From a virus, in the IMG/VR virus record IMGVR_UViG_3300046009_010528, positions 1-41,686 of that record: DNA of 41,686 bases; one strand, 5' to 3'. Positions 6,301 through 40,144 of the stretch are shown piece after piece. The notes beneath the pieces were generated by a model. It was not told the origin of the DNA. It saw only the letters and a list, made by a program, of their open reading frames with translations, and made no database searches. Position 1 is the first letter of the stretch. Each line of letters begins with the position of its first letter. The position numbers were made by a program, and so were the translations under genes.

Positions 6301-6373
6301 GGGAATATAGCTCAGTTGGTAGAGCAACAAACTCATAATTTGTAGTGCCTTGGTTCAAATCCAAGTATTCCCA
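6301..6373 (+). tRNA. tRNA with CAU anticodon (Met elongator or Ile2)
   Basis: A full cloverleaf: acceptor GGGAATA/TATTCCC with discriminator A, D-arm GCTC/GAGC, anticodon stem ACAAA/TTTGT around loop CTCATAA, T-arm CTTGG/CCAAG with TTCAAAT. The 1-72 pair is G-C, so it is not an initiator. CAU could be elongator Met, or Ile reading AUA if modified by host TilS. CCA is not encoded. It starts at the base after the preceding stop codon, so it must be cut from a longer mRNA. Confidence 0.93.
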
Positions 6374-12761: not shown

Positions 12762-13331
12762 TTAGTTGCCTATAGCAAGATAATAATATGTATAAGTTCC
12801 GCCAGATGAGCCGCTGACCCTAGCAGCAGTAAATCCTGCATTTGTGAGAGTCCCTACCTGAACAATCGGTAGGTTATTAGGACTTCCTGAGACGTTGCTA
12901 CCAAAATAAACCCCAAAAGGAGGGTTTGAGTTTGGGAAAGGACTTGCAAAGACAACCGGAGTTGTTGCAACACCATTGGCCATTGTGTAGCTTCCCCACT
13001 TCAAGATAATTCCTCCCATGACTAAAACACTGCCATTACCTGAAATCACATATTGATCTGAACTGTGAGCTGCATTACCTGAATAAAAGAAGAGCTGAGG
13101 CAGCCCTGCTGCTGTATTTGTAAACAATATTGGAGGGCTCACGGGTGGAACAGGAACATTATTTGCATTAAACGTCACCTGATTGTGCTGTCCGCTTCCA
13201 CTGACATTAAATCCTACATGATCTATCGCAACGATTTGACTTATTGCCCCTGCATTTGATTGCATGGTCGAGACATCATCTCCCGGATCGTTGACTGGAT
13301 CTGGAATGGCTGAAGAATAAGCTATTGTCAT
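12762..13331 (-). CDS. Tail-tip/fibre protein with gp53-like C-terminal domain
   Basis: A 189-residue protein. Its C-terminal half (from about residue 98) has the pattern GSVLVMGGIILKWGSYT, then PFPNSNPPFGVYFGS, then a Gly/Ser/Thr turn and YYYLAIGN, which is the layout of the small tail-fibre tip domain described for gp53-like proteins. The N-terminus has a helix that could trimerise (DVSTMQSNAGAISQI). It lies one base from the 884-residue gene and overlaps the upstream 410-residue gene by four bases. Confidence 0.65.
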   Translation of the reverse strand: MTIAYSSAIPDPVNDPGDDVSTMQSNAGAISQIVAIDHVGFNVSGSGQHNQVTFNANNVPVPPVSPPILFTNTAAGLPQLFFYSGNAAHSSDQYVISGNGSVLVMGGIILKWGSYTMANGVATTPVVFASPFPNSNPPFGVYFGSNVSGSPNNLPIVQVGTLTNAGFTAARVSGSSGGTYTYYYLAIGN

Positions 13332-14560
13332 GGTGTACCTACTCCGTAAACGCTATTTGAATTGCCTTGACCAGTTCCTTGACTATAGATCGTCTGGGTC
13401 CTAGTTGATGTAAACTGTCTTTGGCTTCTTTTCCAAACAAGAAGCTCTTGTTCTCTAAAAAGAGGCTCGTAGAAGTTAAATTGTTCGGTATCGCCGGTAT
13501 CAGACAGAATCTTTCTAGCAGCGCCTCGTGCGATATACTCGCTCATATAAGAAAATTGAATTCCTGTACTTCCATTTAAGAAAGCGGCAGGAGACAAATA
13601 GGCCTCTAATTCAACCAAATATTGTGTATCGGGGACTGTTCTTAAAGTAAGTGTGTTGTTGTTGAACAAAATAGCTCTTGGAATACCAGGATTGAAGTAA
13701 TAACACTGGGCATTAATTTGCTGCCCCGATGGAATATTTACAGGGCTTCCGCTAACCGGATCAGTAAAGGTGACGTTGGCTATTCCTGTATTGTAATTGA
13801 TGGTATTGAGCGCTGTTGTATAGACTTGAGCAACAGACTGCTGGCTTCCATTTAATTCCTGATATCCAGATGGAGCTGTTCCGTTGGTCATCATTAAGCC
13901 ATAATTGACATTGCCTTCTAGAAACTGACCTGAATCTTGTACAACACGTGATTGACCTGATGAGTCGACTGTTGTGAAATACACAGCTGGGTAGATACTT
14001 GTGTAGGGAATAGCCAAGTTTAGATTTGTAGCAACCGGCGGATCGACATTCTGCCCAGTAGCAATAATACCACTCATATCAACGTGGCCTCTCAATATCC
14101 CACTAGGAATTACATTTACACTTTGCTGTGATGCTGGAGCAAAAGGGATTTGAAGCGTGTAGTTTGCGCCACCATCTCCAATCCCCACGACTTCATAGGG
14201 TTGGATGTAGTTTTCCCAATAAGAGAAGAATTCAGCTCTCTGAGTATAAAACCCGACAGAAACTCCAGCTATTCTTGCATATGGTAAAAACCCTTGATAG
14301 ACAGGATAGAAATTGATGTTTGTTGTGGGCGTTGCCCCTTCAACTTGAACATCATAAAGTGGCATATTATATTGGTCTACACCAGGAACTGTCTGAAAAG
14401 TATAGACTGTTTTAAGATCGAAAAGCTGCATCCGAGCATCGACATCCATGATCCAGAATCTATTAATATAGTCTATAATCAGGTTGTCTGTGATAACAGC
14501 ATCCGACGGAGATTTGATCAGCCGCCGGACGTAGGTTATTATATCCGAGAGAAGGTTCAT
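13328..14560 (-). CDS. Probable head-tail connector/neck protein, 410 residues
   Basis: The N-terminus is helical (IITYVRRLIKSPSDAVITDN, then a YINRFW helix), the middle is beta-rich with Gly/Thr, and the end returns to a helical segment with EPLFREQELLVWKRSQRQF. Such a helix-beta-helix protein after the coat gene suits an adaptor that sits beneath the portal. The gene order coat, then this, then the large stabilisation protein, parallels coat-gp4-gp10 of P22, from which the role is inferred. A GAGG site precedes the start and the gene overlaps its upstream neighbour by ATGA. Confidence 0.55.
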   Translation of the reverse strand: MNLLSDIITYVRRLIKSPSDAVITDNLIIDYINRFWIMDVDARMQLFDLKTVYTFQTVPGVDQYNMPLYDVQVEGATPTTNINFYPVYQGFLPYARIAGVSVGFYTQRAEFFSYWENYIQPYEVVGIGDGGANYTLQIPFAPASQQSVNVIPSGILRGHVDMSGIIATGQNVDPPVATNLNLAIPYTSIYPAVYFTTVDSSGQSRVVQDSGQFLEGNVNYGLMMTNGTAPSGYQELNGSQQSVAQVYTTALNTINYNTGIANVTFTDPVSGSPVNIPSGQQINAQCYYFNPGIPRAILFNNNTLTLRTVPDTQYLVELEAYLSPAAFLNGSTGIQFSYMSEYIARGAARKILSDTGDTEQFNFYEPLFREQELLVWKRSQRQFTSTRTQTIYSQGTGQGNSNSVYGVGTP

Positions 14561-17099: not shown

Positions 17100-18068
17100 T
17101 TACACCCCCAAATTGGTTAAGCGTGTACAGAGCAGATTACGAATCGCAGTGTCTTGCGTCAGAGCTTGCGCTTGAGCAAATTTAACAGCGAGTGTCGCGT
17201 TCTGAGCGAGAATGCCAGAATAGTAAGGATCACGATAAATCAAATTCATGGAAAATCCATCTTGATTGATGTGAGTTACTGCCTGCTTTCCAGCGACGGT
17301 ATTATAGTACACGTCGTTTCCGTTAGCAGAGGCACCACGAGCAACAGGAGCTTCAGAGCTAGTAAGGATTCGTACGTTAAACACGCTACCCCATTCGCTT
17401 GCAAGAGCTGAGGAATTATTAGGATAATTCCAGTTGTTGATCACGCCAGAGCCAACGAGCGCATCAAAATCAGACTGAAGTTCTGTAGAACTTAGCATGA
17501 AATAAGATGAACGAATCGGGCCAGATCCATAGCGATCCTCGCCAAGAATACCCGCCATAAATTTATAGGCATTGTTGGTGTCAAGTGTAGTCGCAACTAA
17601 GCTGAAATCTGACAGTCCTAAATTCGTAGGATTGTCGCCGTTATTTCCGCCGCCTGCATTAATTTCCGACGCAGCAGAAATTATGTAGTCGCGGAGGATA
17701 AGGTCTTCAGCCTGTCTCATCGCAACAGCCAATCTCTCAGATACCCAGGCTAGTACGCCTTCTTGGTCTTGGAGAATAACTTGTTCGTTGATGATACATC
17801 CTGTTCCAAAGAACGCCATTTGAGCATCAATGATGTCTCTTTGTGGCACTTGTGCTGGAGGGTCAATTCCAGAGTTTCCCAACTGTACGGTGGGCGGTTG
17901 TAATGCGCGAGGTCTCATAAAGCGACAAGTCGTCCCACCATTGGAGGGCATCGAAACTTTGTCGCAAATTGTAATATAGTTCATTGTTGGCGTAGGAACA
18001 TAGAGCATTGCAGGAGCTAAGCTTTGCAAGATCAATGGGCCTAAATTGCCAGTTGTCGTAATTGACAT
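17100..18068 (-). CDS. Major capsid protein, N4-gp56-like family
   Basis: A 322-residue HK97-fold coat candidate. Segments typical of the N4-gp56 coat group are present: MLYVPTPTMNYI, then DKVSMPSNGGTTCRFMRPRA, a helix with WVSERLAVAMRQAEDLILRDYI (about residue 110), and GSVFNVRILTSSEAP with a C-terminal GKQAV..RDPYYSGILAQNATLAVKF. The open frame extends upstream to 18161, but AGGA lies eight bases before the ATG at 18068 (MSITTT), and the extra residues do not look like coat sequence. It heads the main leftward late operon and is its most strongly expressed gene by expectation. Confidence 0.82.
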   Translation of the reverse strand: MSITTTGNLGPLILQSLAPAMLYVPTPTMNYITICDKVSMPSNGGTTCRFMRPRALQPPTVQLGNSGIDPPAQVPQRDIIDAQMAFFGTGCIINEQVILQDQEGVLAWVSERLAVAMRQAEDLILRDYIISAASEINAGGGNNGDNPTNLGLSDFSLVATTLDTNNAYKFMAGILGEDRYGSGPIRSSYFMLSSTELQSDFDALVGSGVINNWNYPNNSSALASEWGSVFNVRILTSSEAPVARGASANGNDVYYNTVAGKQAVTHINQDGFSMNLIYRDPYYSGILAQNATLAVKFAQAQALTQDTAIRNLLCTRLTNLGV

Positions 18069-21164: not shown

Positions 21165-22424
21165 TTAAAGATTAAGGACATCCTTAGCATCGACATAATC
21201 TTCCCAGATGTGCAGTTCATTACCACCATTAAATGATGACGAAGCATGATGCTCTGGAGGTTGGTATGGCTCCCAAGTTTCCGGCTCATAAAACTTATTT
21301 GAAGGAAATGGTACCTCATAAAACTCATCTCCACTTGAAGAACTCAAGTCCGATGAGCCTGAGTTCATATATTCCCAGCTACTCGAAGAAGACTCTCTAG
21401 AAGCAGAGGATAACATCTCAAAAGAGCTAGATTCGCTTAACGGCTCTACTATTCTGATCGGTTGTTGCAAAGACTCTTGAGCTATTCCTATCCCTTTGTA
21501 GTTAAAAAAGGGGATATTGTCCCACCACGAATACGGTTTTTCTGGAGGAACTTCAATTTTTATAGGCTCTACAACAGGTTTTGCACTATTGCTTTTTTCT
21601 TCAATTGTTTCTTTAGGCAAAGACTCCTCTTCCTGCTCTATTGGAGGTAAAATAACAGGTTGTATAGCCGGCATAATTATGGGAGCTGGCGCATAAGCAG
21701 GCTTAAGCTCTAGCGTATAGATCTTAGGAATCCTCTTCTCGATGAGATAAGAAAAATCATTGGATCTATGAATCGACTGATTGGCTCTAGTTTTCTCACC
21801 ACCAAAGTTAATGCCAAAAGAAAATAGGCATCCGTTCCCTGATTTTTTTAGATAGGGAGACACGGCAAACTCAAACTTATCTTTGATCGTGTAAGTCACC
21901 TTGGAATTCAATCCCCACTCTTTTTTGGAATGGTCAAAGAATGGCAATAGCCCCAGCATTAGGTCTTTTGTTGGTTTATAGTTAATTCCCAACTCAGAAA
22001 CCAGACTGTGATATAGCGTTCCTTTCTTAAAGCTTTTCTTCATTTGAGTGGGTAGATAGGTATTATAAGAAAACTGAAAGTTGTTATAAAACACCTCAAT
22101 GCCAGGGCTTAGCTGGTGAATGAAAACACCAGGCTTCGTCATGTTCATATAATAGAAATTTAGACCCATCCCAAAAGCAGGGAAGATCTTTCGATATCCC
22201 AATCCTACTTCATTCTTGAAGAATTTAAGGTGAGGAGAATGAGACAAATGTAGAAGAAGAACATCCCCATTAGGAGCGTACAAATGTGATTGATGATCAA
22301 ACTTGACAGAAGAGGCTGCTGACTCAAAGGGGTTAACATTTATTGAAATCTGGCTATAGTTATCATGAGCTAATAAAGAACTCATGAACAGTGTTATTAG
22401 ACTTATACTTATTTTAGAAACCAT
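21165..22424 (-). CDS. Secreted barrel-like protein with Ser/Pro-rich tail
   Basis: A 419-residue protein with a signal peptide (MVSKISISLITLFMSSLLAH, cleavage after LLA). Residues 30-215 alternate like an outer-membrane beta-barrel (KNEVGLGYRKIF, then MGLNFYYMN, FIHQLSPGIEVFYNNFQFSY, LGINYKPTKDLMLGLLP), which from memory resembles the barrel of inverse autotransporters, notably from Chlamydiae. From about residue 235 it is Pro/Glu-rich, then very Ser-rich. It has the look of a host-derived gene. In a phage it may alter the host surface (exclusion of other phages, or conversion). A leftward operon gene between methyltransferase and mini-genes. Confidence 0.6.
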   Translation of the reverse strand: MVSKISISLITLFMSSLLAHDNYSQISINVNPFESAASSVKFDHQSHLYAPNGDVLLLHLSHSPHLKFFKNEVGLGYRKIFPAFGMGLNFYYMNMTKPGVFIHQLSPGIEVFYNNFQFSYNTYLPTQMKKSFKKGTLYHSLVSELGINYKPTKDLMLGLLPFFDHSKKEWGLNSKVTYTIKDKFEFAVSPYLKKSGNGCLFSFGINFGGEKTRANQSIHRSNDFSYLIEKRIPKIYTLELKPAYAPAPIIMPAIQPVILPPIEQEEESLPKETIEEKSNSAKPVVEPIKIEVPPEKPYSWWDNIPFFNYKGIGIAQESLQQPIRIVEPLSESSSFEMLSSASRESSSSSWEYMNSGSSDLSSSSGDEFYEVPFPSNKFYEPETWEPYQPPEHHASSSFNGGNELHIWEDYVDAKDVLNL

Positions 22425-30539: not shown

Positions 30540-31835
30540 TTATCCTACTCTGGTTGCTGAAATTCTTCCTAAGCAAGTTGCTGTTCCAATAAAAGTTGCT
30601 TGTTGAACTAAATAAAAGGTTGTTGTCGAAGTTACCATAACTCTTTTAGAGGGAATGCTTACGGAAATCTGTGCATTCGTGGAAAATGTATTAATAAAAT
30701 TAACATAATCGTCACCCTGCGACCCTGTAAAAGTAGCACTAGTAATACTCAATCCAGTTGTTGTAGATGTTGCAGAGGTCGTGAAAGCATAGTTAGCAAT
30801 ACCTGAAACATCCCAGATTCCCGCAGTTAAGCTGATGGAAGTAACGTTCCCTGCTGTTGCTGTAGTAATTGAGACGGTTGCATTAGCTCGAATATGTTCA
30901 CCAATGAATCCAGCGTTAGGGTTTTGTGTTAATCCTCCTTTTAAAAGCCCACCTGTTTGTGTTGTTGTGCTAATTTTTGCACTAGTGTTTGTAAAATTTA
31001 ATGCCGAATAATTTATTGTTCCTGCTCCAGCTATAGCATTCGTGTTTGTAGAAGAAACTACTGATGATCGAACGTCCCCTGTAGTTCCAGATCCAATTGA
31101 AAGACATGAGGATGTTCCACTAGTTAAAGCTGAATTTCTAATTATTGTTTGACCAGTCCCAGATGTGGTTAAAGTTGTTGTGTTACCAGTATCGATATCA
31201 GATTGAATCATCGTGACTATTCCTGTTCCACTGGTAGTCATGACAGTGTTTCCATTAACATATTCTTGAGTCAAGACCCCTGCGCTATTGTTTGATGCAA
31301 CTGTTCCTGCTTGGGAAGATGAACAATAATAAAAAGATAGGCTTCCAGGAGAAGTCATATCGTACAAATTATATGTAGCATTGCTGATATATGTATTAGA
31401 ATATTGAATAAATATATTCGCACTAGAACTTGAGCTGGTAAATTCAATTAAATTATGATTAGAACCAGAAATGGTACAATTTGTTAATAAAACATTCGTT
31501 GCAGCTGATCCTGTTACAGAAAGAGCATAATCTGAATTTGTTTGAAATGTAACACCTGATATAACGGATGTTCCGGCAGTTGTCATTGAGACTTTCCCAT
31601 TAATTACGACAGTTCCTGTGTTTCCAGCAATTCCAATGACAAGACCATCACTATCGTATGCTGATAAATTAACTCCAGCTTTTAAAGCTGGGTTCTCTGT
31701 ATAAGTTCCTGGTCGAATAAAAATCGTTTGTCCAGATGAGGCTGCGGTTATAGCAGAAACAATGGTTGTAAAATCACCATGACCTGTGGAATCAACTATA
31801 TGACCTTTAGCCGAGCTATAATCTCTGTATCCCAT
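30540..31835 (-). CDS. Tailspike-like right-handed beta-helix protein, 431 residues
   Basis: The N-terminus (residues 18-45, GDFTTIVSAITAASSGQTIF then IRPGTYTE) is the opening cap of a pectin-lyase-like right-handed beta-helix. The following ~250 residues are Ser/Thr/Asn-rich with regular short strands and turns as expected for the helix. The last 120 residues have a different beta pattern with NATVSITTATAGNVTSI, probably a trimerising tip. Tailspikes of this fold bind or cut surface glycans; no catalytic residues can be named. It is one base from both neighbours. Confidence 0.72.
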   Translation of the reverse strand: MGYRDYSSAKGHIVDSTGHGDFTTIVSAITAASSGQTIFIRPGTYTENPALKAGVNLSAYDSDGLVIGIAGNTGTVVINGKVSMTTAGTSVISGVTFQTNSDYALSVTGSAATNVLLTNCTISGSNHNLIEFTSSSSSANIFIQYSNTYISNATYNLYDMTSPGSLSFYYCSSSQAGTVASNNSAGVLTQEYVNGNTVMTTSGTGIVTMIQSDIDTGNTTTLTTSGTGQTIIRNSALTSGTSSCLSIGSGTTGDVRSSVVSSTNTNAIAGAGTINYSALNFTNTSAKISTTTQTGGLLKGGLTQNPNAGFIGEHIRANATVSITTATAGNVTSISLTAGIWDVSGIANYAFTTSATSTTTGLSITSATFTGSQGDDYVNFINTFSTNAQISVSIPSKRVMVTSTTTFYLVQQATFIGTATCLGRISATRVG

Positions 31836-33325
31836 TAATAGACCTCATAAGTTGGAGTGGCGTTTGCAAGTAGATTTATGGCTTGATAATTTGAGTTCAT
31901 GGTATAAGTAGTAAGCCCATCAAAAGTGACTGTTGCTCCTGCTGTTGTAAGAGTGATATTATTAGTCGACGCATTTCCTGTTCTGTCTTTAACTATCCAA
32001 AATTCTTTTGAAGTTGGAGAATTTGGGAAATTAAGTTGCACAGTTCCTGCGGAACAGTCGACAGAAATATATTGATCTGTTGTTAATACTGTATAAGGAG
32101 ATGCGGCATGATTTACATTCGTATAATTTAATGCCACAGCCGTAGAGGCAATGGTGATTGATCCTGCACCATTTGTTATGGATATACCTGATCCCGCTGT
32201 TAATGTCGCCAATACGGGGTCAGCTCCGGTTGAACCGATAGGCAATTGTCCATTCGTGGCCACACCAAGATTAGTGATAGTTGCGGTTCCTGCACCTACA
32301 AGTAAAGAATGGTTGGTTAATCCTGTTAATTGGGTCGTAAGTGTACTCCCAGAGCCAGCAATAGTGATACTTCCTGTTCCAAGTGTATTTATGTTTCCTG
32401 CTGTTGGGCTTATGGCTCCTCCAGTATTACCTGTTAGAGTATTAAGCACTCCTGTTGCAGATGTAGAAACAAAACCATTAGCATCCACAGAAAATTTACT
32501 TGAATCAAAGTTCGCCAAGCCTACCTTTGTTGCATCTGTTGAAGCTATCGCTTGAGCTTTCTGAACATTTACAGTTAAAGTGCTAACTGCTCCAGATGTT
32601 GTAACGGGTGTTGTACCCGCAGCTGTAGAAACACCTAATATATTCCAATTGCCAGCTGTAGGTGAAAGGGCGCCTCCTGAATTTCCTGTTATCGTTTCTC
32701 CTACCACCGATCCATTAACTGCAATAGAAATAGATCCTGCACCATTTGTTATGGATATACCTGATCCCGCTGTTAATGTCGCCAATACGGGGTCAGCTCC
32801 GGTTGAACCGATAGGCAATTGTCCATTCGTGGCCACACCAAGATTAGTGATAGTTGCGGTTCCTGCACCTACAAGTAAAGAATGGTTGGTTAATCCTGTT
32901 AATTGGGTTGTCAGGGTGCTAGTTCCTGGATTCCCGACAATAGTTATAGATCCTGTACCAACTGTATTAATATTATTGGCTGTTGGTCCTACTGCACCAC
33001 CGCTATTGCCTGTCAGCGTCTCTGTTCCACCAGTTCCACTAAATTGAACAAATCCATTTACATCAACGCTAAATTGTGTGCTATCAAAAGAAGCCAATCC
33101 CATATTAACTGCACTAGACGATGCTTGAGCGCTGGCAGCTTGAACATTGACCGTTACAACATTCGTTGCACCTGATGTAAATACAGGATCGCCTTGTGCT
33201 ACGACATGTTCTCCATAGATTTCTATGTCATTAGCAATAGGAACTGCATTAGCTCCATCAGTCGAAAATGAAGTAGGAATATCTGGGTTATTCTTGATGA
33301 CACTTATTTCGCCAGCTTGTGAGAT
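31835..33325 (-). CDS. Tail fibre protein B, 496 residues, apparent ATC start
   Basis: The conventional ATG at 33103 has no ribosome site, and the frame continues upstream for 74 clearly coding residues: its VTVNVQAASAQA..MGLASFDSTQF is a copy of the internal VNVQKAQAIAS..VGLANFDSSKF of the same protein. The upstream frame opens at 33325 with ATC, six bases after AGG, where ATG would give MSQAGEIS. So the start is either ATC, or a mutated or misread ATG. The rest is repeated beta-rich fibre with LTGNSGG units and a perfect 176-base duplication. The C-terminus is a knob with ASPYTVLTTDQYISVDCSAG. Confidence 0.75.
   Translation of the reverse strand: MSQAGEISVIKNNPDIPTSFSTDGANAVPIANDIEIYGEHVVAQGDPVFTSGATNVVTVNVQAASAQASSSAVNMGLASFDSTQFSVDVNGFVQFSGTGGTETLTGNSGGAVGPTANNINTVGTGSITIVGNPGTSTLTTQLTGLTNHSLLVGAGTATITNLGVATNGQLPIGSTGADPVLATLTAGSGISITNGAGSISIAVNGSVVGETITGNSGGALSPTAGNWNILGVSTAAGTTPVTTSGAVSTLTVNVQKAQAIASTDATKVGLANFDSSKFSVDANGFVSTSATGVLNTLTGNTGGAISPTAGNINTLGTGSITIAGSGSTLTTQLTGLTNHSLLVGAGTATITNLGVATNGQLPIGSTGADPVLATLTAGSGISITNGAGSITIASTAVALNYTNVNHAASPYTVLTTDQYISVDCSAGTVQLNFPNSPTSKEFWIVKDRTGNASTNNITLTTAGATVTFDGLTTYTMNSNYQAINLLANATPTYEVY
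32160..32335. repeat. Direct repeat copy 1 in fibre gene (176 bp, perfect)
   Basis: Identical to 32733-32908, 573 bases away. Because 573 is a multiple of three the repeats are in the same frame, encoding about 58 residues of the fibre shaft. Recombination between them would delete exactly 191 codons without a frameshift. Confidence 0.95.
32733..32908. repeat. Direct repeat copy 2 in fibre gene (176 bp, perfect)
   Basis: Second copy of the 176-base unit; see 32160-32335. Perfect identity at the DNA level, including silent positions, points to recent duplication or continuing gene conversion rather than selection on the protein alone. Confidence 0.95.
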
Positions 33326-33332
33326 AAATTAC

Positions 33333-33974
33333 CTATCCCTGTTGCGAAAGTTCATTTTTTTTAACCTGTAAGACTAAATGCTCAAGCTTTCTTTCCAACA
33401 ACTTCATAGCCAATTCAATGTTGTTGGTTTTTAGAATTGCATTAGAAGCATCTAGCATTGCAACTTCAAGTTTTTCTAATATTCTGTTATTGCTTTCTAA
33501 CACAGATTTAGGAGCAGATAAAGCCTCTGATCTAAAAGATTCTAGTTGTGATTTTTGCTTTTCTGCGTATTCGTTAAACCTTCCAGAAAAGCTTGTTGAA
33601 ATGTCTACGATTTTTTTAGACGCTTCTTGCTTTACTTCATCTGTTTGCTTTTCTAATACAGGCAATAGCTCTGAGGTAATTCTGATTCTTTCCTCATGAA
33701 TAACCAAAGCTCTCTTTAATGAGTCGACGTCTATTTTAATTGATTCAATGGAAGACTTGTTTGTAACTTGCTTTTGATTCAGATCACTAATAAAACTCTC
33801 TGTTGCAAGTCTAAAAGATTTAAATTCCTCTGGAACATCAGGCTTTTTATTTAGTTCTTGTATTTGTGTTTTAAAGACATTTATAGAATGGTTAATTGAT
33901 TCATATTCAATTTTATATTGTTCAAGTTTGCTTTCTACCGCATGAAGTGAAGCAACAACCTGAACATCTTTCAT
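33333..33974 (-). CDS. Coiled-coil fibre-associated protein, 213 residues
   Basis: An almost entirely helical protein with long heptad stretches (SKLEQYKIEYESINHSINVF, then SIKIDVDSLKRALVIHEERI, then LAMKLLERKLEHLVLQ). The start at 33974 overlaps the preceding stop as TAATG; an ATG at 33986 lies inside the previous gene. It sits between fibre genes, so it may be a fibre chaperone or a coiled-coil shaft/adaptor. Its stop is eight bases before the ATC start of fibre B. Confidence 0.65.
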   Translation of the reverse strand: MKDVQVVASLHAVESKLEQYKIEYESINHSINVFKTQIQELNKKPDVPEEFKSFRLATESFISDLNQKQVTNKSSIESIKIDVDSLKRALVIHEERIRITSELLPVLEKQTDEVKQEASKKIVDISTSFSGRFNEYAEKQKSQLESFRSEALSAPKSVLESNNRILEKLEVAMLDASNAILKTNNIELAMKLLERKLEHLVLQVKKNELSQQG

Positions 33975-37650: not shown

Positions 37651-37923
37651 ATGAAATCTCATCAAATCTATTTTGGAAAGAAGTTCTACGAAAGAAAAGA
37701 TGGTTATTGGGTTTGTACAACCGATCCCAAATTATATGCTCATCGTTGGGTCTGGATGATCCATTTTGGAGACATCCCATCAGGAATGGATATTCATCAC
37801 AGAGATGATGACCCATCTAACAACGAAATTTCTAATCTTTTAATGCTTACACCATCGCAGCATTTAAAGTTTCACTGGAGAATTAGAAGGACTAATCCCA
37901 ATCAAATGTTGTTAGCGATTTAG
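37651..37923 (+). CDS. HNH endonuclease (packaging-associated type)
   Basis: Ninety residues with the HNH core: AHRWVWMIHFGDIPSGMDIH, HHRDDDPSNN, and NLLMLTPSQHLKFHW. H-H-D-N/N-H spacing matches the compact HNH nuclease fold. Phages often code an HNH next to terL and portal, where it assists the packaging cut; here terL, HNH and portal are in one direction. A homing nuclease is possible but less likely because the gene does not interrupt another. The coding start is at the end of the shared TATTCGATAT box. Confidence 0.85.
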   Translation: MKSHQIYFGKKFYERKDGYWVCTTDPKLYAHRWVWMIHFGDIPSGMDIHHRDDDPSNNEISNLLMLTPSQHLKFHWRIRRTNPNQMLLAI

Positions 37924-37993: not shown

Positions 37994-40144
37994 GTGTCCT
38001 TTTATTATCCGCCTTGGCAGAACGATCTAGAACCTAATCAGGGCAATGTCCGCACGTGGCTCGACAACCTCTACGCCAAGGTGATGCCTATAGAGCAAAG
38101 TCGCTGGAACCAATCCAACATCGACACGCTTTTCTATGCCGGAGAGCAGTCATTTCTTAATCGATATTTGGGAAATAATAATGGCAATAACAGCTCTTCC
38201 AATTCCAACTACTACTTCAATATCTGCCAGCAACCTATTAATATGGTTACTGGGTATGAGAGGCAACATCGTAAGGGATTTATGTGTCAGGCTATTGAAG
38301 GGGCTGACAATCAGACTACAGATCAATATACCAAGCTATTAACACATACAGCCAATATTGGAGGAATTCATGAAAAGAAATCTAAAGCAAAAGAATTGGC
38401 TGCAATTTGTGGCATGGTTCTTGTTCAGCCCTATCTTGATTATACTGGAGATGATCAGGCACAAGGTGAACTAAAAACAAAAATATGGGAATACAACTCA
38501 TTTCTAATAGATCCATACTTCCGAAATCCTGATATGTCTGATGCACAGTTTATATGGTGTCAAGAATACATTTCCAAAAGAGAGGCTGAATCCAGATTCC
38601 CAGACAAAAAAGTCAATATTGCTCCAATGTCTGGCGCACCACAGCGTTATGGATCTTTCTATTTCCTTCCTGAAAACTACAACATGGCTCGTAATGATTT
38701 AATGGTGCTTTCATATGTGTGGTATAAATGGAAGCGGAAGAAGAAAAGACTATATTCTCAGAAAAGAAACCAATTCTTCGATTTTGCTGGAGGAGATGGT
38801 AATATTGATATCCTTATCCAGAATATTCCAGATTTAGAAGAAGTCACTGTAGAAGTGCCCACCTGGAAAGTTGCTGTAGTCTTAAACGATCAATTAGTCT
38901 ATCAAGGCGATAATCCTCTTAAATTTGATTCATGCCCATTCATTAATTATCACTGGAATTACGAACCTCATATTAATTACTATGATTTACGGGTTCGTGG
39001 ACTTATAAGACCAATGCGATCGTCTCAATTTTTATTCAATCATAAAGTCATCCAAAATAACGATATTGCTGCTGCTACCATAAATGCTGGATGGAAGCGT
39101 AAAATAGGGGCTGTAGCGAATGAAGATAATCTTAAGAAGTCCGGTCAAGGGTGGGATGTTATCGTCAATGATGGATATGAGTTGACTGACGTTGAAAAGA
39201 TCATTCCTTCTGCTGTTCCAGAATCCGATCTTGCTTTAGCTCAACAGATGGAAGACTTGATGTATAAATCATCAGGGATCAATCTTGAAAACTGGTCAGG
39301 TCAACAAGATAAGCAAACTTCTAGTTTGACTGTCTTGCTAAAACAGGCCGCAAATTTGATGGTATTTCAGAAGTATTTCGATCAATGGGATTACTCTGAC
39401 ATGTTGCTTGGAGAAACAAATCTTCAGATTATGTTAAATAATTGGAGTGCAGAAAAAGTAGAAATGCTTATCGGTGAAGAACCAAGTCCATTTTTTTACT
39501 CTAAGGTATTCTCAAAATATAAAGTAATCGTAGAAGAGAGCGATTTAACTCCGACGCAGCAAAACTTGCAAGCACAGCAAATGCTAGATATGAATGAACG
39601 TTTTGGACGTGAAGTATTTACTCCAGATCAAATCATACCTAAGCTCAATATTACTGGAAAAGCAGAGATCATTAAGATCCTTGAACAACAAAAACAACAA
39701 CAAGCTGCTGCTGCTGAACACAGCATGCACCTTGAACACGCTGTTGAAGAAGCTAAACTTAAAGAGCTGTATGCTAAAACTGCTATGGCAGTGGCAAATG
39801 CTAGAGAAAGACATGGGCGTGCTGAGTCAAATATTGGGCTATTTGAGGAGCGTTTAAGTATGATCGGGCGCAACAATTCAATGAGTACCAAGGCTAAAAT
39901 GGAAGCCCTTGAGAAACTTGTTGAAGTCACTCATCGTTATGGTGAACTTGAAGCTCATCTTAAGATGAACAATATTCAATCCTTAGATACACAAGAACAG
40001 ACTAAAGAAGATATAGCTAAGGATGACGCAAAAAGAACCTCGATGTCAAACGATTTTGTTGCTCAAATGCTAGCTGGTATGGGTGGTGGACAAGAACAAC
40101 AAGGCGAAATGGGCAATCAAGAACAAAATGTAATGAATTCTTGA
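37994..40144 (+). CDS. Portal protein, P22-like, GTG start
   Basis: A 716-residue protein of P22-portal size. The N-terminal part (VRTWLDNLYAKV, then EQSRWNQSNIDTLFYAGEQS, NYYFNICQQPINMVTGYERQ) and a core with QFIWCQEYISKREAESRF, FSPFINYHW and GLIRPMRSSQFLFNHK are typical of the family; the last 130 residues are a long Gln/Glu/Ala coiled coil (barrel helix), followed by a Gly/Gln-rich end. GTG at 37994 follows AAAGGGGG. It forms the twelve-subunit ring at the head vertex through which DNA enters. Confidence 0.85.
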   Translation: MSFYYPPWQNDLEPNQGNVRTWLDNLYAKVMPIEQSRWNQSNIDTLFYAGEQSFLNRYLGNNNGNNSSSNSNYYFNICQQPINMVTGYERQHRKGFMCQAIEGADNQTTDQYTKLLTHTANIGGIHEKKSKAKELAAICGMVLVQPYLDYTGDDQAQGELKTKIWEYNSFLIDPYFRNPDMSDAQFIWCQEYISKREAESRFPDKKVNIAPMSGAPQRYGSFYFLPENYNMARNDLMVLSYVWYKWKRKKKRLYSQKRNQFFDFAGGDGNIDILIQNIPDLEEVTVEVPTWKVAVVLNDQLVYQGDNPLKFDSCPFINYHWNYEPHINYYDLRVRGLIRPMRSSQFLFNHKVIQNNDIAAATINAGWKRKIGAVANEDNLKKSGQGWDVIVNDGYELTDVEKIIPSAVPESDLALAQQMEDLMYKSSGINLENWSGQQDKQTSSLTVLLKQAANLMVFQKYFDQWDYSDMLLGETNLQIMLNNWSAEKVEMLIGEEPSPFFYSKVFSKYKVIVEESDLTPTQQNLQAQQMLDMNERFGREVFTPDQIIPKLNITGKAEIIKILEQQKQQQAAAAEHSMHLEHAVEEAKLKELYAKTAMAVANARERHGRAESNIGLFEERLSMIGRNNSMSTKAKMEALEKLVEVTHRYGELEAHLKMNNIQSLDTQEQTKEDIAKDDAKRTSMSNDFVAQMLAGMGGGQEQQGEMGNQEQNVMNS

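Follow-up and report, generated by a model that had tools for sequence, protein, structure and literature searches.

Near-cognate start codons in known systems

In the mobile element IS911, orfB has an AUU start that is connected with programmed -1 frameshifting. The phage genes described here are similar in that an AUU-type start on a mobile element is tied to an upstream reading frame, but the start of orfB is frameshift-linked, whereas here no usable frameshift route is present and the portal start stands alone.

The infC gene starts with ATT (ATC in Streptomyces) and sigR with GTC, and both have low output and are repressed by initiation factor 3 (IF3) (PMC5472188). As in infC, where start-codon discrimination leads to low output (PMC5472188), a near-cognate AUU/AUC start is kept in evolution at the locus studied here; however, infC is one cellular gene in an IF3 feedback loop, whereas the phages have such starts in more than one virion gene, the codons turn over frequently, and the role of IF3 is proposed. 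In S. aureus, cvfC1 (AUU) and ccpN (AUA) combine low output with an extended Shine–Dalgarno (SD) site (PMC13009471). These two genes and Streptomyces sigR share with the phage genes a non-canonical start, which sets a low output in the cells and would do so in the phages, but they are cellular regulatory genes, while the genes concerned here are phage structural genes and include ACG starts. For prokaryotic GUG and UUG starts, the weaker codon is paired with a stronger SD, and AUG was replaced by AUU once among 61,358 ancestral AUG starts (PMC5622118). Weak start codons likewise occur with stronger SD sites in the phages, but in contrast to that single replacement, about half of their portal genes have a near-cognate start. 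Among the open-licence papers searched, no report was found of near-cognate starts of portal genes.

The fibre gene and its AUC codon

The window, i.e., the whole stretch of DNA that was analysed (41,686 nt; IMGVR_UViG_3300046009_010528), belongs to a group of uncultivated, short-tailed phages with a P22-type portal, of which the portal, adaptor, and fibre genes often appear to be started by AUU, AUC, or ACG. The features at its fibre gene are as follows:

33325-31835, minus strand: tail-fibre gene, 496 residues, AUC to TAA (31837-31835)
33323..33325, minus strand: probable AUC start of the fibre, aligned with the M of M-SQAG in relatives
33329..33331, minus strand: in-frame TAA ahead of the AUC that closes the fibre frame
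33331..33334, minus strand: SD-like AGGT, which overlaps the stop codon of the upstream gene and lies 5 nt before the AUC
33333..33974, minus strand: gene upstream of the fibre, 213 aa, no known family

The C-terminal part of the fibre protein matched phrog_31660 (tail fiber protein, E 2.9e-7). The sequence-only reading had described a fibre frame beginning with ATC where ATG is expected, and the sequence facts it gave on this start were all correct on re-examination. The ATC (33325-33323), followed by TCA CAA GCT GGC, and the in-frame TAA (33331-33329) are present; the first canonical start in the fibre frame after this TAA is codon 74 (ATG 33103), with no ATG, GTG, or TTG in between, and it lacks an SD site, while the ATC lies 6 nt past the end of AUAGG. 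The TAG of the upstream gene (33335-33333) is in a different frame from the fibre, and a single frameshift from that gene is stopped on both routes, by this TAG and by the TAA. In both the window and the nearest relative, the TAG lies 7 nt upstream of the start, which is the stop-near-start arrangement of termination–reinitiation coupling. The ATC also has the properties of a near-cognate initiation site, namely, the absence of an in-frame canonical start compatible with homology and a properly spaced SD (AGGT, 5 nt before). The fibre is very probably translated from AUC 33325-33323 and not from an AUG.

Relatives of the fibre gene

A scan of IMG/VR retrieved 60 loci encoding relatives of the fibre. 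Their start codons, mostly ATG and in a few cases TTG, align exactly with the fibre ATC (M-SQAG). The nearest relative (IMGVR_UViG_3300050821_017785, hereafter L004) originates from another metagenome and has ATT at the homologous codon. The 74 codons ahead of ATG 33103, which had been claimed to be coding, are indeed so: residues 1-74 share 68% identity with L004, and identity to many other relatives is about 43-54%. The L004 fibre has no canonical start for 92 codons, compared with 74 in the window. The proteins of the upstream genes are just 48% identical between the two phages, yet the 7-nt stop-to-start gap is the same, and TAGGTAWTTTATYTCACA is kept in this region. When the whole genomes were compared, the fibre was the only sense gene pair in which homology began, in each genome, tens of codons ahead of the first canonical start.

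A near-cognate codon is kept in L004, the sole close relative found (three scans yielded none beyond it), and the more distant relatives have mostly ATG. Among SQ-type fibres, starts were ATG (39), TTG (5), GTG (5), ATT (3), and ATC (1), and those of two further genomes (G026 and G054) are ATT starts with SD sites. The fibre start codon is odd, as had been noted, but it is not an isolated case; such starts recur throughout the family, most markedly in the portal gene.

Portal gene start codons across the family

Related phages were reached via the capsid protein, and 72 genomes (70 genomes, that of L004, and the window) were surveyed for homologous start positions with a non-canonical codon. 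The portal gene of the window is as follows:

37994..40144, plus strand: portal gene with a GTG start, PF16510 (P22_portal), E 6.9e-50

Its PF16510 score was 170.6 bits, above the curated cut-off of 26.1. About half of the genomes had ATT, ATC, or ACG at the portal start (M-SFYYPPWNN). For the 76 distinct sequences of the merged set, the start codons were ATT (22), TTG (16), ATG (15), ACG (9), GTG (8), and ATC (6). A separate pattern scan on the post-start residues, counting genes recognisable as portal and leaving out non-portal matches, gave ATT (23), TTG (15), ACG (13), ATG (10), GTG (9), and ATC (2). Under strict rules, eight genomes of the portal table were excluded, as they had another possible start in frame or an N-terminus that was not aligned properly. 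In 31 of 37 near-cognate portals, the stretch from -8 to +15 was free of ATG, GTG, and TTG in all three frames. Neither ATA nor CTG was found as a start in the portals surveyed, the chance of which would be 6e-9 if the five near-cognate codons were equally likely.

On the portal protein tree, at least 20 switches between near-cognate and canonical starts were counted and at least 38 start codon changes of every kind, with no one codon conserved. Individual ATT or ACG starts of portal genes were each found in two to four different metagenomes, and an ATT portal start was also present in a GTDB MAG assembly. The portal genes mostly lie 45-300 nt downstream of the previous ORF and therefore, unlike the fibre of the window, are without tight coupling.

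Gene specificity of the near-cognate starts

Two further genes of the window were compared across the family:

13328..14560, minus strand: putative adaptor gene with an ATG start and a SU10_adaptor match (E 3.8e-5) that does not reach the curated cut-off
17100..18068, minus strand: major capsid gene (control) with an ATG start

The adaptor assignment is putative and combines a sub-threshold Pfam match (SU10_adaptor, 24.7 bits against a cut-off of 27) with matches of a structure model (mean pLDDT 72), for which the 15 best VIA-align matches (Z 6.3-8.8) were portal-tail or tail complexes of phages and the best Foldseek E was no lower than 0.01. Starts of this gene in 52 genomes were ATG (34), TTG (9), ATC (5), ATT (3), and ATA (1). 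In the window, only the fibre has a near-cognate start, as its portal starts with GTG and its adaptor with ATG, which counts against the dose-control reading proposed below.

In a separate sample of 54 distinct relatives, the capsid gene started with ATG (52) or TTG (2). Portal and capsid could both be scored in 38 genomes; the portal was non-ATG and the capsid ATG in 26 of them, and the opposite was found in none. Other gene families of the surveyed genomes had about 96% ATG. Under strict criteria, 22 near-cognate and 114 canonical starts were counted for portal, adaptor, and fibre together, and no clean near-cognate start was found in other families against 677 canonical ones; the Fisher p value for this difference (2e-18) is not to be taken literally because the three families were picked post hoc and the sequences are related. 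Seven of the eight genomes with a near-cognate adaptor also had a near-cognate portal (p 0.046).

Shine–Dalgarno strength and spacing

In every one of the 37 near-cognate portals, 4-7 nt separate the end of the SD core from the start codon, 5 nt being the commonest distance. Calculated energies of the duplex with the assumed anti-SD had medians of about -9.3 kcal/mol for near-cognate portals and -6.1 kcal/mol for ATG portals (p 5e-8 without kinship correction), and were -7.1 kcal/mol for the AGGT before the fibre AUC and -4.1 kcal/mol for its counterpart in L004. On independent pairs, the association with SD strength had the same direction (4.5 pairs in favour to 0.2 on average) but was not significant (median p 0.125). 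The position, homology, recurrence, and gene specificity of the near-cognate starts and their association with strong SD sites are read directly from the genomes; actual initiation at the near-cognate codons is inferred from them, with good support.

Proposed dose control of vertex proteins and alternative explanations

The portal and the adaptor are rings of twelve in known phages. The capsid protein is present in hundreds of copies per particle, and few copies of portal, adaptor, and fibre are expected. We consider it more likely than not that near-cognate initiation, probably throttled by IF3, gives a low output of these few-copy vertex proteins and that the fibre AUC is one member of this family pattern. 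The fibre AUC would be read by the initiator fMet-tRNA with a third-base mismatch, aided by the AGGU SD and by the stop of the upstream gene 7 nt before. Discrimination by IF3 against the weak codon would limit how much vertex protein is made for a given amount of capsid protein, and the strong SD site would keep their output above a minimum. We infer the IF3 step and the dosage purpose of the weak codons, the latter because the few-copy genes share them and such codons reduce output in the known cases. A gene of which little product is needed does not necessarily have a weak codon; terminase is an example, having mostly ATG with a weak SD. The ACG starts also weigh against this reading because a second-base mismatch, as in ACG, was poorly tolerated in one in-vitro survey of IF3 (PMC10158994).

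The broader claim has about an even chance of being correct, namely, that in a large group of uncultivated phages AUU, AUC, and ACG are a standing device that sets the dose of portal, adaptor, and fibre against capsid in balance with SD strength, and that ACG is a regular natural start codon of the bacterial type. If initiation at these codons is real, all three are among the regular starts of natural phages, and virion assembly is under dose control by the start codon. Gene finders restricted to ATG, GTG, and TTG clip the N-termini of portals and fibres, by 74 codons in the window and by up to about 90 in relatives.

Near-cognate initiation could also be real but purposeless, with selection for AUG relaxed, little product needed, and a strong SD allowing mutations to persist. 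This is unlikely, albeit to be taken seriously: the number of codon changes on the portal tree and the lack of any one conserved codon are what relaxed selection would produce, and terminase reaches low output by another route. Relaxed selection fits less well with ATG being found in just 15 of 76 portals, with the imbalance of 26 to 0 between portal and capsid in one genome set, and with many other presumably low-output phage genes that have no near-cognate start.

A permissive host, in which an altered IF3 or initiator tRNA makes AUU, AUC, and ACG ordinary starts, is rather improbable. A genome-level cause of this kind would predict the co-occurrence of near-cognate portals and adaptors (seven of eight genomes), but it is weakened by the gene specificity of near-cognate starts, as the capsid genes remain ATG and the other families of the same genomes have no clean near-cognate start; the portals also lack ATA and CTG.

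We regard it as very improbable that the N-terminal part of the fibre is produced by recoding (frameshift, bypass, or readthrough from the upstream gene) and not by initiation. The upstream gene does stop just ahead of the fibre in the window and L004, with A-rich runs near its end, which would fit recoding; however, single shifts in the window run into the TAG and TAA, the corresponding codon of relatives is ATG or TTG, most portals lie 45-300 nt after the upstream ORF, and around the SD of 31 of 37 near-cognate portals no alternative start exists in whichever frame is read. For L004, recoding was considered and rejected, the fibre frame being open for just 15 codons before the ATT.

A sequencing or assembly error or the dead start of a mutant, for which it can be said that ATC is one substitution from ATG, is extremely improbable given the ATT at the same codon of L004 in another sample and the same near-cognate portal starts in independent assemblies (two to four metagenomes and a GTDB MAG). 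Of the possibilities raised by the sequence-only reading, an AUC start is therefore strongly supported, whereas a base-call error and a silenced fibre are unlikely; a quantitative lowering of fibre output is plausible.

tRNAs, host, and interrupted genes

A phage tRNA was considered as an explanation of the starts and rejected; the CAU tRNA of the window (6301-6373) is not initiator-like because it has G1-C72 and an AU-rich anticodon stem, and it was the only CAU tRNA in the 72 genomes. Asn(GTT) and Thr(TGT) tRNAs were commoner than CAU across these genomes. No cultivated relative was found in 50,697 phage records, either by fibre-region DNA or by portal protein, and the MAG matches obtained for the host were scattered over unrelated phyla. 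For a beta-barrel-like phage protein, a search of 192 genomes belonging to the same phylum as G104 gave no match, which shows little without a positive control. The gene at 21165-22424 of the window had a weak match to the PF11924 inverse-autotransporter beta domain (E 2.4e-4, just below the cut-off), and its product is possibly a phage-carried outer-membrane barrel.

Terminase genes started with ATG and almost no SD site in about 20 genomes (e.g., 36327 in the window), and the terminase of genome G047 has no canonical start ahead of its GPVRSGKT motif.

In the L004 genome (G001), the portal frame (about 8007-7700, minus strand) is broken after ...NVRQWL by about 250 bp; this insertion looks like a small group I intron, although it was not called by Rfam at the gathering threshold. 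At this portal site, a stop is present in two other loci (L387 and L413). The major capsid gene is broken in several genomes (L142-L148 and the MAG loci L155-L158), with matches that are fragmented or extend over about 1.2 kb or more, suggesting introns or inteins. Small homologous genes resembling HNH endonucleases are located between terminase and portal in the window (37651-37923) and in L004 (955-1248).
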